Source of the DNA: Brachybacterium huguangmaarense
Lineage (GTDB): Bacteria; Actinomycetota; Actinomycetes; Actinomycetales; Dermabacteraceae
NCBI RefSeq assembly: GCF_025725725.1
Contig: NZ_CP107020.1
Location: forward strand, 1,364,001 to 1,428,000
Direction of reading: 5' to 3'
DNA: 64,000 nt
Part shown: one piece after another, positions 16,846-41,347 of the stretch
How the letters are laid out: the number at the start of each line of letters is the position of its first letter
Position numbering within the stretch: position 1 is the first letter of the stretch
The notes under the pieces: model-generated
The model's database searches: none
What the model was told of the DNA's origin: nothing
The model's input: only the letters and a program-made list of their open reading frames with translations
Position numbers and translations under genes: made by a program

Positions 16846-17937
16846 TCACGGCAGCACCTGCGAGAACGAGCCGCCCAGCAGGGACGCCACGGTGGGCACG
16901 ATGCCCAGCAGCACGAAGGCGGGCAGCAGGGTGGCCCCCGTCGGCAGCACGAGGCGCACCGCGAGCCGCGCGGCCGCCGCCTCCGCCTCGCGGGCGCGGC
17001 CGCGACGGGCGTCGGCGGCGTTCGAGCGCAGGAGCCCCACCGGATCCGCGCCCGTCGTCTCGCCGACCAGGGCGGCCTCCCGCAGCGGCTCGAGCGCGGG
17101 CCCCGACCCCGCGAGCGCGATCGCGACCGGTGCTCCGGCCCCGAGCGCCGTCCCGGCGTGCTCGAGGGAGGACGCCGCCTCGTCGTCCTCGAGGGCGTCG
17201 GCGACCGCGACCAGGGCGGCGGCGAGCGGTGCCCCGGCGGCGAGAGGGCCGGCGACCAGGTCGAGCACGATGGAAGGGTCGACGGCACCCGCCGCGGGCT
17301 CCTCGCGCGCCGAGCGCACGAGAGATCGCATCCACCACCACCCCGCGGCGGTGAGCGCGACGCCGAGCACGCCGAGCAGCCGGCCGCCGCCTGTGAGCAG
17401 GAGGCCGAGGGGGTCGGCGCCGAGCAGCATGCCCAGGCCGATCCCGAGGACCGGCAGGGCGAGCAGGATCCTGGCCGTCGCGAGCGGTCCCGCGAACGCG
17501 CTGCGCCGGGCGAGGCCCGCATCGGCCACGGCGCGCAGGGCGTCGGCGAGCGTGAGCAGCACCGGGCCCGCGGGCGCCCCCGTGCGCTCGCACAGCGCCA
17601 GAGCCGCGCCGAGGGCGGCCACCTCGCCGCTGCGGGCCAGGCGGGCAGGCGCCGCCCGACGCGGATCCGCCCCGGCTCCCACGGCGCGTGCGAGGTCTCG
17701 CAGCGGGCCGGCGCCCGTCGTCGACGCGACCGCGGCCCACGCGGCCCGTGGTGCCACTCCCGAGCCGACGACCGTCGCGATCCGCTCCACCAGACGGGCG
17801 ACGTCGAGGGGGCCGGGGCGTGCGGAGGGGCGTCTCGGGTGCCGCCCGCTCGAGGCGTCGCGAGGCCAGGCCGACGGCGGCCCCGCGGACAGGAGCAACC
17901 CCGCTCCCAGGACGGCGGCCACGGCGACGGGGATCAT
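16846..17937 (-). CDS. Type II/Tad secretion system F-family membrane protein (TadB/TadC-like)
   Basis: Inner-membrane platform protein of the Tad system, 363 residues. The N-terminal half resembles TadB (LVERIATVVGSGVAPRAAWAAV, then ALALCERTGAPAG). The C-terminal half resembles TadC (DLVAGPLAAGAPLAAALVAVADAL, ALVGETTGADPVGLLRSNAADARRGRAREAEAAAARLAVRL), and closes with helices such as LVLPTGATLLPAFVLLGIVP. Many actinobacteria encode these as two genes; here both halves lie in one reading frame. The ATG overlaps the tadA stop by 4 nt. It probably works with the TadA ATPase to assemble the DUF4244 pilin. Confidence 0.85.
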   Translation of the reverse strand: MIPVAVAAVLGAGLLLSAGPPSAWPRDASSGRHPRRPSARPGPLDVARLVERIATVVGSGVAPRAAWAAVASTTGAGPLRDLARAVGAGADPRRAAPARLARSGEVAALGAALALCERTGAPAGPVLLTLADALRAVADAGLARRSAFAGPLATARILLALPVLGIGLGMLLGADPLGLLLTGGGRLLGVLGVALTAAGWWWMRSLVRSAREEPAAGAVDPSIVLDLVAGPLAAGAPLAAALVAVADALEDDEAASSLEHAGTALGAGAPVAIALAGSGPALEPLREAALVGETTGADPVGLLRSNAADARRGRAREAEAAAARLAVRLVLPTGATLLPAFVLLGIVPTVASLLGGSFSQVLP

Positions 17938-19109
17938 CGCACTCTCCCGGCGTCCATCCCGAGGCGCCGGGCGAGCCCGGGCCACGCCGGCCCGGCCGTC
18001 ACCGGACCGTGCAGGTCGAGCGCCGTGCGCGCCCGCAGTCGCCCGGCCTCGTCCCGCTCGAGACATGCGACGTGCTCGAGCGCGCGCCGCCCCTCCCGGC
18101 GCCCGAGGTGGAGGACGACGTCGAGGGCGCTCGCCGCCTGGCTCCCCAGGGCCAGGGGATCGAGGCCGCCGAGCACGCCGAGCGCCTCGAGCCGGGCCGG
18201 CACGTCGACGGCGCGGTTGGCATGGACCGTGCCGCAGCCGCCCTCGTGGCCCGTGTTGAGTGCCTGCAGCAGCTCGCGCACCTCGGCGCCGCGGCACTCG
18301 CCCACCACGATGCGGTCCGGGCGCATGCGCAGGCACTCGCGCACGAGGGCGACGAGGTCGACGCCGCCCGCTCCCTCGGTGTTCGCGTGGCGCGCCTGGA
18401 GGTGCACCACATGGGGGTGCTCGGGGTCGAGCTCGTGCGCGTCCTCGACGACGACGATCCGCTCGCTCGCGGGCGCGGCGGACAGCATCGCGCCGAGCAC
18501 CGTGGTCTTGCCGGTCCCCGTGCCCCCGCTGACGAGGAAGGCGACGCGCCGGGCCACGATCCGTTCGAGCACCTCTCGTGCGAAGGGCGTGAGGGAGCCG
18601 CTGCGCTCGAGCCCGGCGAGCGTGAGACGGGCGGCGGCGGGCCGCCGCAGCGAGATGAGGGCCCCGCCCGTCGACAGCGGCGGGAGCACGGCGTGCAGCC
18701 GCGTGCCGTCGGGCAGATGCGCGTCGGCGCACGGCGAGGCGTCGTCCAGGCGCCGCCCTCCCGCCGTCGCGAGGCGCACGGCGAGCGCCCGCGCCTCGCC
18801 GGGGCCGAGGCGGACCGCGGTGGGGTGCAGCCCGCTCGCGTCGTCGACCCACACCGCGCCGTCGGCGTTGACCAGGATGTCCGTGGCGCCGGGCACGGCG
18901 AGCTCCTGGAGCGGGCCGAGCCCCTGCACGTGATCGCGCACGGCGACGGTCAGGCGCAGCAGCTCCGCGGCGCCGATGACCCTGCCCTCCCGGTGCAGGA
19001 GGCGCGCCACCCGCGGGACGTCGACCTCGCCCGGCGCGGCCACGAGATCCTCGCGCACCCGTTCGAGCAGGGAGGCCGACACGGCGGCCGCGGCCGCCCG
19101 GGAGGTCAT
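17934..19109 (-). CDS. Tad secretion ATPase (TadA/CpaF family)
   Basis: Cytoplasmic hexameric ATPase that powers Tad pilus or protein secretion, 391 residues. Visible features in order: the N-terminal FIST-like segment GLGPLQELAVPGATDILVNADG; Walker A SGGTGTGKTTVLGA (about residues 189-202); the Asp-box IVVVEDAHELDP; the Walker B-like RMRPDRIVVGECRGAEV; and the His box NTGHEGGCGTVHAN. All are intact, so the enzyme should be active. It overlaps the ssd stop and the following secretion gene by 4 nt each. Confidence 0.93.
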   Translation of the reverse strand: MTSRAAAAAVSASLLERVREDLVAAPGEVDVPRVARLLHREGRVIGAAELLRLTVAVRDHVQGLGPLQELAVPGATDILVNADGAVWVDDASGLHPTAVRLGPGEARALAVRLATAGGRRLDDASPCADAHLPDGTRLHAVLPPLSTGGALISLRRPAAARLTLAGLERSGSLTPFAREVLERIVARRVAFLVSGGTGTGKTTVLGAMLSAAPASERIVVVEDAHELDPEHPHVVHLQARHANTEGAGGVDLVALVRECLRMRPDRIVVGECRGAEVRELLQALNTGHEGGCGTVHANRAVDVPARLEALGVLGGLDPLALGSQAASALDVVLHLGRREGRRALEHVACLERDEAGRLRARTALDLHGPVTAGPAWPGLARRLGMDAGRVR

Positions 19110-20215
19110 CGTCCCTCTCCCGCGTCGGCGGCGAGCCGGTCGAGCAGCCGTCTGCAGGCGGCGTCGGCTCCCCGCCGTCGCACGTCGAGCAGCGGCACGA
19201 CCCCCGCGGCCGCGTCCCGGAACGCCCCGCTCGTCCGCAGCCCGAGACGCTCGGCCACGTCTCCGGGCGACAGCGGACCGGTGCGCCGCACGAGCAGGTG
19301 CACCCGCCCGCGTCGCAGGCCCCAGCCGTGCAGGCGGCGGGCTGCCGCGCGGACGGCATGGTCCGTCGCGGGCACGACCAGCACGACATGGTCGAGCAGG
19401 GGGAGGACGGCCTCGACGGTGCCGGTCCCGACGTCCACCACGACCGTGCCGTCGAGCGGGGCGAGAGCGGCGACGGCCGCCACGGCCTGCTCGGGCGTGG
19501 GCAGCGCGGCCTCGCGCGCGACGAGCACGTGCACGCCGTCGACCACGGGCAGCCCGTCCCGCAGAGCCCCGCCGTCGTCCCCGCCCAGGCCCCCGACGTC
19601 CTCCCACCGCGCCCCCGGCATGCCCGCGGCCTCGACGAGCACGTCGAGGCCGCCGCCGAGCGGGTCGGCGTCGACCAGCACCGCGGACGAGCCGGATCGC
19701 GCCGCGGCCCCCGCGAGACGGGCGGCGAGGCTCGACGCGCCGGCGCCGCCGCACCCGCCGACCACGCCGATCACGAGGCCGCGGGAGGTGCGGCGCACGC
19801 TCGCGGCCAGCAGGTCGAGCAGCCGGGCGGAGTCGGCCGGCAGTCTCACGACCGCGCGCACCCCGCCCTCGAGGCACGCCCGCCAGTGCTCCTCGCCGAT
19901 GTCGCCGTCGGGGGCGAGCGCGATCACGGTGCCGGCGGGCCGGGTCGCTCCCCGCCGGGCGCTCCGCCGCGCGAGCACGGCGACGGAGCCCAGGGCGACG
20001 CCGGGCCCGGGATCGTGCGGCGCGGCGTCCACGAGACGGGCGCCGAGCGCGCCGACATGGTCGGCGGCGAGCTGACGCAGGGCGTCCGGTCCGCCGAGCC
20101 AGGAGACGACGCCCGGTTCGGCCGAGGGGAACACCGAGGCGGGACGCGAGGACGCCGCGGGCCAGGACGCCGGCGAGGTCCGGGACGGCGGGGGAGCGAT
20201 AGCAGAACGGGTCAT
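19106..20215 (-). CDS. CpaE/Ssd-like MinD-family protein of the Tad locus
   Basis: 369-residue protein of the septum-site-determining protein (Ssd)/CpaE-like family found beside Tad operons in actinobacteria; it is thought to position the secretion machine or influence septation. The MinD-like domain begins GLVIGVVGGCGGAGASSLAARLA. The deviant Walker A lacks the usual GKT lysine (GAGAS), a trait shared with mycobacterial Ssd, so ATP use is doubtful. Further motifs are VLVDADPLGGGLDVLV and VVDVGTGTVEA. It is the first gene of the operon; GACGAT lies 6 nt before the ATG, suggesting a leaderless transcript. Confidence 0.85.
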   Translation of the reverse strand: MTRSAIAPPPSRTSPASWPAASSRPASVFPSAEPGVVSWLGGPDALRQLAADHVGALGARLVDAAPHDPGPGVALGSVAVLARRSARRGATRPAGTVIALAPDGDIGEEHWRACLEGGVRAVVRLPADSARLLDLLAASVRRTSRGLVIGVVGGCGGAGASSLAARLAGAAARSGSSAVLVDADPLGGGLDVLVEAAGMPGARWEDVGGLGGDDGGALRDGLPVVDGVHVLVAREAALPTPEQAVAAVAALAPLDGTVVVDVGTGTVEAVLPLLDHVVLVVPATDHAVRAAARRLHGWGLRRGRVHLLVRRTGPLSPGDVAERLGLRTSGAFRDAAAGVVPLLDVRRRGADAACRRLLDRLAADAGEGR

Positions 20216-20324
20216 GTCGGCATCGTCGGTGCGCCGTGCCCGTCGGCACAGCCCCCGTCACCGCGCGGGGGATGATCCGGACGTGGGGAGGGGAGGCGGG
20301 CCCGGGCCGACCGCCGGCGGCCCC

Positions 20325-20353
20325 TTGTCGCCGCGGCAGGGCGGGAGTATGGT
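20325..20353 (+). promoter_or_regulatory. Sigma-A-type promoter of the orphan structured RNA
   Basis: A -35 TTGTCG (20325-20330) and a -10 TATGGT (20348-20353) are separated by exactly 17 bp. It faces a stretch with no coding gene on that strand. It is among the best -35/-10 pairs seen in the window, and transcription should begin near 20360. Confidence 0.6.
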
Positions 20354-20360
20354 GTGAGTC

Positions 20361-20525
20361 ACAACTCGATAAGGGACGCGGAACCCACGTGCGGGTGGTC
20401 TCCGTATCAGACCCGGCTCCCCGATGCCGACAGCATCCAGGCAGCCACGCATGAGATGCACGCCTGATACCGCGTCCCAGATCGAGTCAGACGGCGTCGC
20501 GGGTCACCGCGGCGCCGTTGTCTGT
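20361..20525 (+). ncRNA. Unassigned structured RNA (small RNA or orphan riboswitch)
   Basis: No protein-coding frame is credible here, but the sequence folds strongly by eye. Outer stem: CTCGAT (20365-20370) with ATCGAG (20481-20486), then a 2x2 internal loop, then GGGACGCGG (20373-20381) with CCGCGTCCC (20470-20478). Inside are ACCC/GGGT (20383-20396), GATGC/GCATC (20423-20437) and GCAT/ATGC (20449-20459). Two inner pairings exclude each other: GTATCAG (20404-20410) with CTGATAC (20464-20470), or CAGGC (20438-20442) with GCCTG (20462-20466). A good promoter precedes and a 12-bp hairpin follows. Pieces (GGAACCCAC, CCGACAGC) recall actinobacterial ydaO c-di-AMP riboswitches, but spacing differs and no gene follows on this strand. 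I cannot assign a known family. Confidence 0.5.
20491..20518 (+). terminator. Terminator-like hairpin after the structured RNA
   Basis: A 12-bp stem, ACGGCGTCGCGG paired with CCGCGGCGCCGT (one G-U), closes a GTCA loop and is followed by TGTCTGTG. It starts 5 nt after the RNA's outer stem, which would define an RNA of roughly 165 nt. The remaining stretch to the xth gene (20526-20680) contains only GC-rich inverted repeats that I cannot assign. Confidence 0.5.
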
Positions 20526-20680
20526 GCGCGGTCGCTCCGCGCGGGCACCGACCTGGCGCCCGCACGCGACGCTCGAGGCTCCTGGCGGACCGCAGGCGTG
20601 CTCACACGGTCCGTGAGCAGGCGCGCACCCGAGACCGTCGGCCGCCGGCGCGCCGCCCGGAGCGCACCGCCCTCTGCGCG

Positions 20681-21481
20681 TCAGAGCTCGAGGTCGACGA
20701 TGACCGGCGCGTGGTCCGAGGCTCCCTTGCCCTTGCGCTCGTCACGGTCGATGCGGGCGTCGGTGACCGCGCGCTGGACGGCGGGGGAGCCGAGCAGGAA
20801 GTCGATGCGCATGCCTTCCTTCTTGGGGAAGCGCAGCGCCTGGTAGTCCCAGAAGGTGTAGACGCCCGGCCCCGGCGTGTAGGGGCGCGCGAGGTCGGCG
20901 TACCCGGCGTCGACGATCGCGCCGAACGCCTCCCGCTCGGGCGCGGTGACGTGGGTGCGGCCCTCGAAGAACCCCATGTCCCACACGTCGTCGTCCTGCG
21001 GGGCGACGTTGAAGTCGCCCGCGAAGATCGTGCGGGCCTCCGGGTCGGCCGCGAGCTCGCGCGCGCCCTCGGCCCGCACGGCCTCGAGCCAGCGCAGCTT
21101 GTAGGCGTAGTGCGGGTGGTCGATCTCGCGCCCGTTGGGCACGTACAGCGACCACACCCGCAGCCCGTCGCCGACGACGCCCGAGAGCATGCGGGCCTCG
21201 AGAACGCCGCCCTCCTCCTCGGGCCAGGTCGGCACGGCCTCCATCGCGACCCGCACGTCCTGGAGGCCCACGCGCGAGATCAGCCCCACGCCGTTCCACT
21301 GGTTCAGGCCGTGCACGGCCGTCTCGTAGCCCGCCGCGTGGATCGCCGTGAGATCCAGCTGCTCAGGGCGGGCCTTGAGCTCCTGGAGGGCGAGCACGTC
21401 CACGTCGTGGCGCTGCAGGAACGCGACGACGCGGTCGGTCCGGGCACGCAGGGAGTTGATGTTCCAGGTCGCGATGCGCAT
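20681..21481 (-). CDS. xth: Exodeoxyribonuclease III / AP endonuclease
   Basis: Mg-dependent exonuclease III-type AP endonuclease for base-excision repair, 266 residues. It starts MRIATWNINSLRARTDRV, the family's N-terminal catalytic Asn region, and contains LALQELKA (metal-binding Glu), SLYVPNGR, FAGDFNVAP (catalytic Asp-Asn) and GASDHAPVIVDL (final Asp-His). All active-site residues are present and the length is normal. TAGACT lies 6 nt before the ATG, so the message is probably leaderless. It runs convergent toward the structured RNA. Confidence 0.94.
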   Translation of the reverse strand: MRIATWNINSLRARTDRVVAFLQRHDVDVLALQELKARPEQLDLTAIHAAGYETAVHGLNQWNGVGLISRVGLQDVRVAMEAVPTWPEEEGGVLEARMLSGVVGDGLRVWSLYVPNGREIDHPHYAYKLRWLEAVRAEGARELAADPEARTIFAGDFNVAPQDDDVWDMGFFEGRTHVTAPEREAFGAIVDAGYADLARPYTPGPGVYTFWDYQALRFPKKEGMRIDFLLGSPAVQRAVTDARIDRDERKGKGASDHAPVIVDLEL

Positions 21482-40591: not shown

Positions 40592-41347
40592 TCAGCCGAG
40601 CAGCCGCGCGGCCAGCAGCACGATCACGCCCGCGGTCGCGACGGGCGTCGCGGCGACCGCGAGCGAGGGCAGCGGGTCGCGCGCGACCAGGAGCGAGGCG
40701 AGCAGGCGATGGGACGCGGCGGCCGCGACGCCGATCATGGCGCCCGCGGCGATCGCGAGCAGGGCCGAGGCCCCGCCGGGCCCGGTCACGAGCACGAGCA
40801 GGGCCACCGCGGTCGCGACCACGACGGCGCCGCCGGCGGCGAGGGGTGCGGGAAGGGGCGCCTCGAGCACCACGAGAGCGGCCGCGAGCGCGACGGCGCA
40901 CGCGGTCACGGCCGCGAGCGAGGCCCCGTCGGTCTCGACGGCGCGGACGGCCTGCACCCAGCAGCCGACGAGCCCCGTGAGCACGACGCCCGCGACCGTG
41001 CCCGTGAGGGAGGCGGTGAGCTCGCTGCGGCGCCGACGCAGCATCTGGTGGACGAAGGAGGCGAAGACGCCGAGCGCGCACACCGAGGCGATCGAGGCCA
41101 TCGGGCTCAGCGCGGCGGGCGGGGAGAGGGCCGCGAGCACGCCCACGAGACCGGTCGTGGCCATCACGATCCGGGTGCCCAGGGCCGAGGGCAGCTCGAG
41201 CAGGACCGGCCAGCCGGCGGCGACCAGGAGCACGAGGGCCACGGCGACCACGGCGACGATCGCGGAGGCGGCGCCGCCGCACAGCGAGGCGAGGGCGAGG
41301 AGGAGGGCCAGGGCGGCCCCCAGGGGTGCCCGCGCGGGCGGGGTCAT
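40592..41347 (-). CDS. Hypothetical multi-pass membrane protein
   Basis: 251-residue protein made of seven or eight hydrophobic helices (for example [55 protein letters not shown]), with one basic cytoplasmic loop ([14 protein letters not shown]). I do not recognise the family; no catalytic motif is visible. GAGGGAGG precedes the ATG at 41347, which is preferred over an in-frame ATG at 41413. It is divergent from mshD, with about 180 bp of promoter-bearing sequence between them. Confidence 0.7.

Follow-up and report, generated by a model that had tools for sequence, protein, structure and literature searches.

A compact RNA of the Ms1 class is very probably encoded beside ssd in Brachybacterium

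The gap between ssd and xth of Brachybacterium huguangmaarense raises the question of what a stretch of 465 bp without genes encodes. The original prediction, made from the letters of the window analysed here (64,000 nucleotides in all), had proposed a structured RNA with its own promoter and terminator, and had left it as a free-standing small RNA, a decayed riboswitch or a new family. The gap was gene-free at the stated length, a tRNA/tmRNA scan of the region found neither, and no gene followed on the + strand, as had been noted; xth lies on the opposite strand. From comparisons of sequence, structure and gene context, we conclude that the gap very probably carries the gene for the Ms1 orthologue of Brachybacterium. 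The features of the locus are collected in Table 1.

Predicted transcript and covarying structure

The promoter-like pair TTGTCG-17-TATGGT was found as described and agrees with the consensus at 8 of 12 bases. Its general form, TTG-N17/18-TANNNT, stood upstream in 30/30 distinct loci (27 of the genus and 3 of sister genera), with a spacing of 17 in 29 of them, a count taken without a chance control. A GC-rich hairpin lay at the same downstream place in all 30 distinct loci folded. In the window this terminal hairpin was present as predicted, with 13 pairs in the minimum-energy fold, not 12. A T run was usually absent from it and was present in sister genera (L091, L093). Judged by sequence, the locus is a single transcription unit bounded by a promoter of its own and a terminator-like hairpin, conserved in 30/30 loci, which bears out the reading as a free-standing small RNA, here of ~160 nt. 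The transcript ends were placed from the promoter and hairpin positions.

The 171-nt sequence folded better than 200/200 dinucleotide shuffles (z −5.48), and the 125-nt domain better than 200/200 shuffles (z −4.55). When the ssd-xth region of relatives was aligned, compensatory changes were found. In alignment A3, which holds 29 of the 31 genus members (one unfetched locus and one identical stretch were omitted), the structure P1a, P1b, P1c, P2 and P3/P4 was paired in 95.5% of cells, against at most 39.3% in slid controls. Both sides had changed at 12/34 pairs, in 43 cells, and none of the five measures was reached by any of 500 shuffles. Unconstrained RNAalifold recovered P1b, P1c, P2 and P3/P4. 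Within the interrupted outer stem of the original prediction (CTCGAT..ATCGAG and GGGACGCGG..CCGCGTCCC), which was confirmed and covaries, P1a carried both-side changes at 3/5 pairs with 88.9% of cells paired in the genus, and P1b carried double changes at 3/7 counted pairs in the genus, 8/9 in other families and 7/8 in a broad set. One pair of P1c swaps from G-C to A-U within the genus (15:12), while P3/P4 was paired in 96.9% of genus cells with double changes at 4/12 pairs.

A matching structure was found in other families. Seventeen sequences (alignment A7, from which L129, L141 and L144 of 20 loci were omitted) were paired in 81.4% of cells, with double changes at 18/28 pairs (reached by 1/500 shuffles) and in 70 cells (0/500). 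The broad set of 31 sequences (alignment A8, omitting L137 and L172, for which the picking pattern gave no match) was paired in 84.0% of cells and contained 90 double-change cells, each value being reached by 0/500 shuffles. Two of the five measures do not exceed shuffles in this set, namely its 12 double-change pairs (reached by 57/500) and its 35 pair types (74/500). P1c showed further double changes in the broad set once this had been enlarged to 43 sequences (8 cells, 0/500 shuffles), its middle pair often being a C-A mismatch in other families. In the 31 sequences P2 was paired in 93.5% of cells, one of its pairs alternating between U-A and C-G (16:15), and the P3/P4 arm differed in length and sequence between families.

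Of the inner hairpins first proposed, P2 and P3/P4 are kept in relatives, whereas the ACCC/GGGT hairpin of the single-sequence fold is absent from them, CGTGC pairing with GCACG as P1c instead. That hairpin and the T-loop-like reading of the CGACA loop were dropped because neither is kept in relatives. A pseudoknot reading of CGUGC/GCACG was also rejected, the pairs being nested.

These data bear on whether there is an RNA gene at all. The gap might hold chance GC-rich inverted repeats, or the 3' end of xth on the other strand: simple consensus scanners detected neither promoter nor terminator at the window locus, and the surroundings reach 78-79% G+C in relatives. Chance repeats would hardly give genus covariation above all shuffles or a fold at z −5.48, and the element is conserved across families, yet six relatives without it keep ssd and xth. 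The absence of an RNA gene is therefore barely credible.

Table 1. Positions of the features discussed (window coordinates unless a locus is named)
Feature	Position	Strand	Evidence or remark
tadA-type ATPase	17934..19109	-	TIGR03819 433.8 bits, cut-off 373.15
ssd (CpaE homologue), divergent neighbour of the RNA	19106..20215	-	TIGR03815 148.5 bits, E 2.6e-43, slightly below the curated cut-off of 154.45
Promoter-like pair TTGTCG (20325-20330), 17 nt, TATGGT (20348-20353)	20325..20353	+	sequence
Predicted transcript, Ms1-type RNA, ~160 nt	20360..20520	+	promoter and hairpin positions, genus conservation, R3 match
P1a, outer stem CTCGAT/ATCGAG	20365..20370 with 20481-20486	+	
P1b, stem GGGACGCGG/CCGCGTCCC	20373..20381 with 20470-20478	+	
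Central bubble, 5' side AACCCA	20382..20387	+	ACCCACG invariant in 31/31 A8 rows and 29/29 A3 rows; the selection of rows by patterns that include part of the core inflates this
P1c, stem CGUGC/GCACG	20388..20392 with 20458-20462	+	
P2, hairpin GGUCU..AGACC	20397..20413	+	100% of cells paired in genus
P3/P4 arm, outer GGCU/AGCC, inner GAUGC-CGACA-GCAUC	20415..20446	+	
Central bubble, 3' side CCUGAUA	20463..20469	+	YUGNUA in most rows, a count affected by the same row selection
Terminator-like hairpin, 13 pairs (minimum-energy fold), no T run	20490..20519	+	
xth, exodeoxyribonuclease III, convergent neighbour of the RNA	20681..21481	-	TIGR00633 230.4 bits, cut-off 99.05
RF02566 Ms1 match used for the consensus-pairing comparison	L223 1354-1660		
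6C RNA (RF01066)	L223 2792-2867; L243 2891-2966; L177 1029-1104		

Distribution and loss

BLASTN found a match in 17 of 38 genus genomes. The core pattern occurred exactly, and once each, in 31/38 Brachybacterium genomes, and a covariance model of the genus (R1) found the identical 31. Across the family, R1 matched 37/47 genomes (the 31/38 of the genus and 6/9 of sister genera) and, across the order, 41/297, with a best E of 2.9e-13 outside the family. One weak R1 match in a sister genus (L293, G068:C1:236686-236755, E 0.0018) lies away from the xth copy and may be a moved copy or chance.

A second model, R2, was built from the 17 sequences of other families. It matched 91/297 order genomes and 114/394 class genomes, once per genome among the matches listed; of the weak matches in the class count, L205 and L208 were inspected individually, and both were rejected as false (E 3.1e-4 and 5.4e-4, inside open frames, with no tadA or HAD gene near). 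The third model, R3, was built from 31 sequences, none from the family of the window and none mycobacterial. It matched the window at 20369-20483 with 48.5 bits (E 3.7e-12), a score that is a sign of consistency and not independent proof, because the sequences behind it were reached stepwise, from R1 through R2 to R3, with the genus as the starting point. The second-best R3 match in the 64 kb (41137-41201, - strand, 13.0 bits, E 0.092) is probably chance. A pattern search in named genomes fetched 19 contigs (18 from Brachybacterium and one from an Actinomycetales MAG), and R3 matched 19/19. In a genus presumed to be Streptomyces, R3 matched 34/41 genomes at E<=1e-3, one of them being a training row.

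In seven genus genomes the RNA was not found. In six of them (L295-L300) ssd and xth stay adjacent across a gap of 93-149 bp, no RNA core was found in the 1.5 kb searched at each ssd-xth locus, and the lone ACCCACG in L299 falls inside ssd. A permissive R1 search at the ssd-xth place of the RNA-less genomes gave nothing, and the seventh genome (G005) is 84% complete. These six genomes thus appear to have lost the RNA cleanly, and a similar loss with short gaps has been described for Corynebacterium and others (PMC9130861).

Relation to Ms1 and to other RNA classes

In Rfam searches of the whole window at gathering thresholds there was no match of any kind. Searching 20200-20720 up to E=10 gave four matches, none of them relevant and none to Ms1, 6S RNA or a riboswitch. 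The resemblance to the ydaO c-di-AMP riboswitch, suggested by the short words GGAACCCA and CCGACAGC, did not hold up: no riboswitch appeared up to E=10, conservation of CCGACAGC ends with the genus, no gene follows on the strand, and promoter and hairpin flank the RNA on both sides. A riboswitch with a downstream gene was dropped because the promoter and hairpin proved conserved, and decay sits badly with a core that is invariant in the genus alignment. A ydaO-type element, intact or decayed, is exceedingly unlikely.

The long hairpin with an open central bubble, the own promoter and the similar length would also suit classical 6S RNA (Rfam RF00013), which likewise binds polymerase in other bacteria. 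Neither Rfam search gave a 6S match, and the core and the locus fit Ms1. Moreover, 6S RNA binds the sigma-containing holoenzyme and was absent from Actinobacteria as then known (PMC9130861). This identity is very unlikely for the Brachybacterium RNA.

Ms1 binds the RNA polymerase core in M. smegmatis, S. coelicolor and M. tuberculosis (PMC4191392, PMC9130861, PMC11077062). It has earlier been called weakly conserved and was traced in Actinobacteria by gene annotation words and BLAST (PMC9130861). The gathering cut-off of its Rfam model (RF02566) is 162 bits, which the window RNA does not reach. The same model was silent on 13/13 relatives in one test and on 6/8 in another, Streptomyces-like loci included; since it misses most relatives, it marks the mycobacterial branch and not the Ms1 class. 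With up to 3 mismatches allowed, the reverse complement of a published anti-Ms1 oligonucleotide (PMC4191392) matched a single genome among 296 of the class, at a locus that is itself an RF02566 Ms1 of 296 bits. The RF02566 Ms1 locus reads CCGGACACCCACGCGG...GCACGCUUGGUAGCCGG, to which CGGAACCCACGUGC...GCACGCCUGAUACCG in the window corresponds, and the Rfam consensus structure pairs the 5' half CCGGACACCCACGCGG with the 3' half GCACGCUUGGUAGCCGG.

Our models scored mycobacterial Ms1 weakly: R2 gave 14.0 bits (E 0.0035), R3 gave 17.4 bits (E 2.2e-4 in 3 kb) with its 5' half set on a second ACCCACG, and the best genome-wide E of R3 in 40 mycobacterial genomes was 0.013. This is the weakest link in the argument and reads as the long arm of mycobacterial Ms1 defeating a compact model; because of these scores, the link to authentic Ms1 rests on the core as seen by inspection, on the Rfam pairing and on the gene context. 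The bubble-core pattern was present in 15 distinct mycobacterial loci of the 30 fetched from R3 matches (L223 and L266, which coincide, were counted once). At least 14 of the other fetched mycobacterial loci look like noise.

Gene context had been left out of the covariance searches. A gene for a HAD hydrolase or for CpaE that flanks the RNA on one side is a mark of the Ms1 neighbourhood (PMC9130861), and in the window Ssd directly adjoins the RNA, which sits between ssd and xth; no HAD hydrolase lies beside it there. A match to tadA lay near the RNA in 20/20 same-family, 17/20 order and 17/19 class loci, and a HAD-IB hydrolase in 7/20 order, 11/19 class, 20/20 Streptomyces-like and 14/15 mycobacterial loci; two of the HAD proteins were used to assign the family. 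The one same-family locus with a HAD gene (L107, from a sister genus) brings these genes together: HAD stands directly upstream of the RNA, xth behind it, and tadA is present. A further protein (cluster 17; L204:5055-5909 and relatives), for which neither Pfam nor NCBIfam gave a match at E<=0.001, was encoded near the RNA in 20/20 Streptomyces-like loci and in 15/15 mycobacterial loci with the core pattern. A 6C RNA (RF01066) was also observed close to Ms1 in mycobacteria and at one other class locus.

Mycobacterial Ms1 (RF02566; MTS2823 in M. tuberculosis) resembles the Brachybacterium RNA in its core, ACCCACG / CGCYUGNUA between stems, and in being a long hairpin with its own promoter and terminator (PMC4191392); a HAD hydrolase and the cluster-17 gene adjoin it. 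It differs in length (~304 nt against ~160 nt), and it alone has an additional 5' hairpin as well as a long side arm containing the second ACCCACG. In 84% of cases of the mycobacterial type, the gene lies near the replication origin and is transcribed towards it (PMC4191392, PMC9130861). The Ms1 of Streptomyces coelicolor, scr3559, is of intermediate length (~230 nt; PMC9130861) and binds the RNA polymerase core in vivo (PMC9130861, PMC11077062). R3-matched loci of the same kind occur in the presumed Streptomyces genus, where the published scr3559 oligonucleotides matched the fetched loci with 5-6 mismatches or not at all within the limit used.

The negative Rfam Ms1 model, the length and side arms unlike those of Ms1 and the weak model scores on mycobacterial Ms1 would together fit a different RNA class, with another function, that happens to occupy the Ms1 locus. 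Against this, the bubble core and its flanking stems recur at one locus in intermediate families as well as in the Streptomyces-like genus, and we consider a separate class improbable. Most likely, then, the RNA extends the known Ms1 class by its shared core, architecture and gene context, and the idea of a new family is given up. Published Ms1 carriers include Cellulomonas, Isoptericola, Streptomyces and others (PMC9130861), and the Micrococcales candidates (Cellulomonas, Isoptericola, Beutenbergia and others) share order and context with the window RNA and presumably represent the same RNA as the matches found across the order. Neither Brachybacterium nor Dermabacteraceae is named in Table 4 or the main text of PMC9130861; the RNA therefore seems to add a new and compact member to a class already known. 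A literature search on Brachybacterium with Ms1, 6S or small RNA gave none with Brachybacterium among the matches listed.

The central bubble and a proposed role

In the Ms1 class, the bubble and its adjoining stems are the most conserved parts (PMC4191392, PMC9130861), and the central bubble matters for polymerase binding (PMC4191392). The Brachybacterium RNA has the corresponding long hairpin, in which P1b and P1c enclose AACCCA/CCUGAUA and which covaries in three sequence sets. The third base of UGNUA was G in 20, A in 8, C in 2 and U in 1 of 31 rows.

The helix register beside the bubble was compared in 43 sequences (alignment A9, which adds L172, L170, L171, L142, L137 and seven same-family rows). 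In the Rfam Ms1 consensus, the partner of CCA in ACCCA is UGG and that of GCG is CGC; this register was paired in 86.4% of cells and had 0 double changes (equalled by 500/500 shuffles). The alternative, CG-N-RC with GCACG, was paired in 84.7% of cells and had 8 double-change cells (0/500 shuffles), counts that are not blind because rows were chosen after some had been seen to vary in P1c. The non-Rfam register is modestly favoured. The preference is no stronger because the middle pair is unpaired in 22/43 sequences, because some rows were added knowingly, and because a control slid by −2 scored higher for covariation (0.192 against 0.086), though it had fewer paired cells and a smaller number of double changes. 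In two metagenome-type genomes of one family (f20; L170 and L171) the core reads ACCCACGCACG...GCGCGAUUGAUA, and the middle P1c pair stays C-G.

These features suggest how the RNA may work. A sigma-A-like promoter would drive a transcript of ~160 nt, closed by the terminator hairpin. In the folded transcript, P1a and P1b would form a long, interrupted hairpin that holds a near-invariant bubble, AACCCA opposite CCUGAUA, beyond which the stem P1c would lead to a junction with two small arms (P2, P3/P4). Through the conserved bubble, the RNA would bind the RNA polymerase core, and binding of the sigma-free enzyme is its likely function; we infer its transcription, binding and physiological role from the class to which it is assigned. 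A search of the literature for a structure of Ms1 with polymerase gave nothing usable among the matches listed. We tentatively suggest, with somewhat less than even confidence, that the bubble ACCCACG/CGCYUGNUA is a sequence-specific polymerase-core module, going beyond the shape of an open promoter, in which the arms are dispensable, the non-Rfam register applies and the Brachybacterium RNA is a near-minimal Ms1.

Covariance models grown from one raw stretch of DNA join Brachybacterium with many other actinobacterial families, and the results point to a gap in the Rfam Ms1 model. The short near-invariant core narrows the likely polymerase-contact site to ~16 bases, and the Brachybacterium RNA would offer a compact natural version for structural work. 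The six genomes with apparent clean loss would provide a natural comparison for the role of the RNA.
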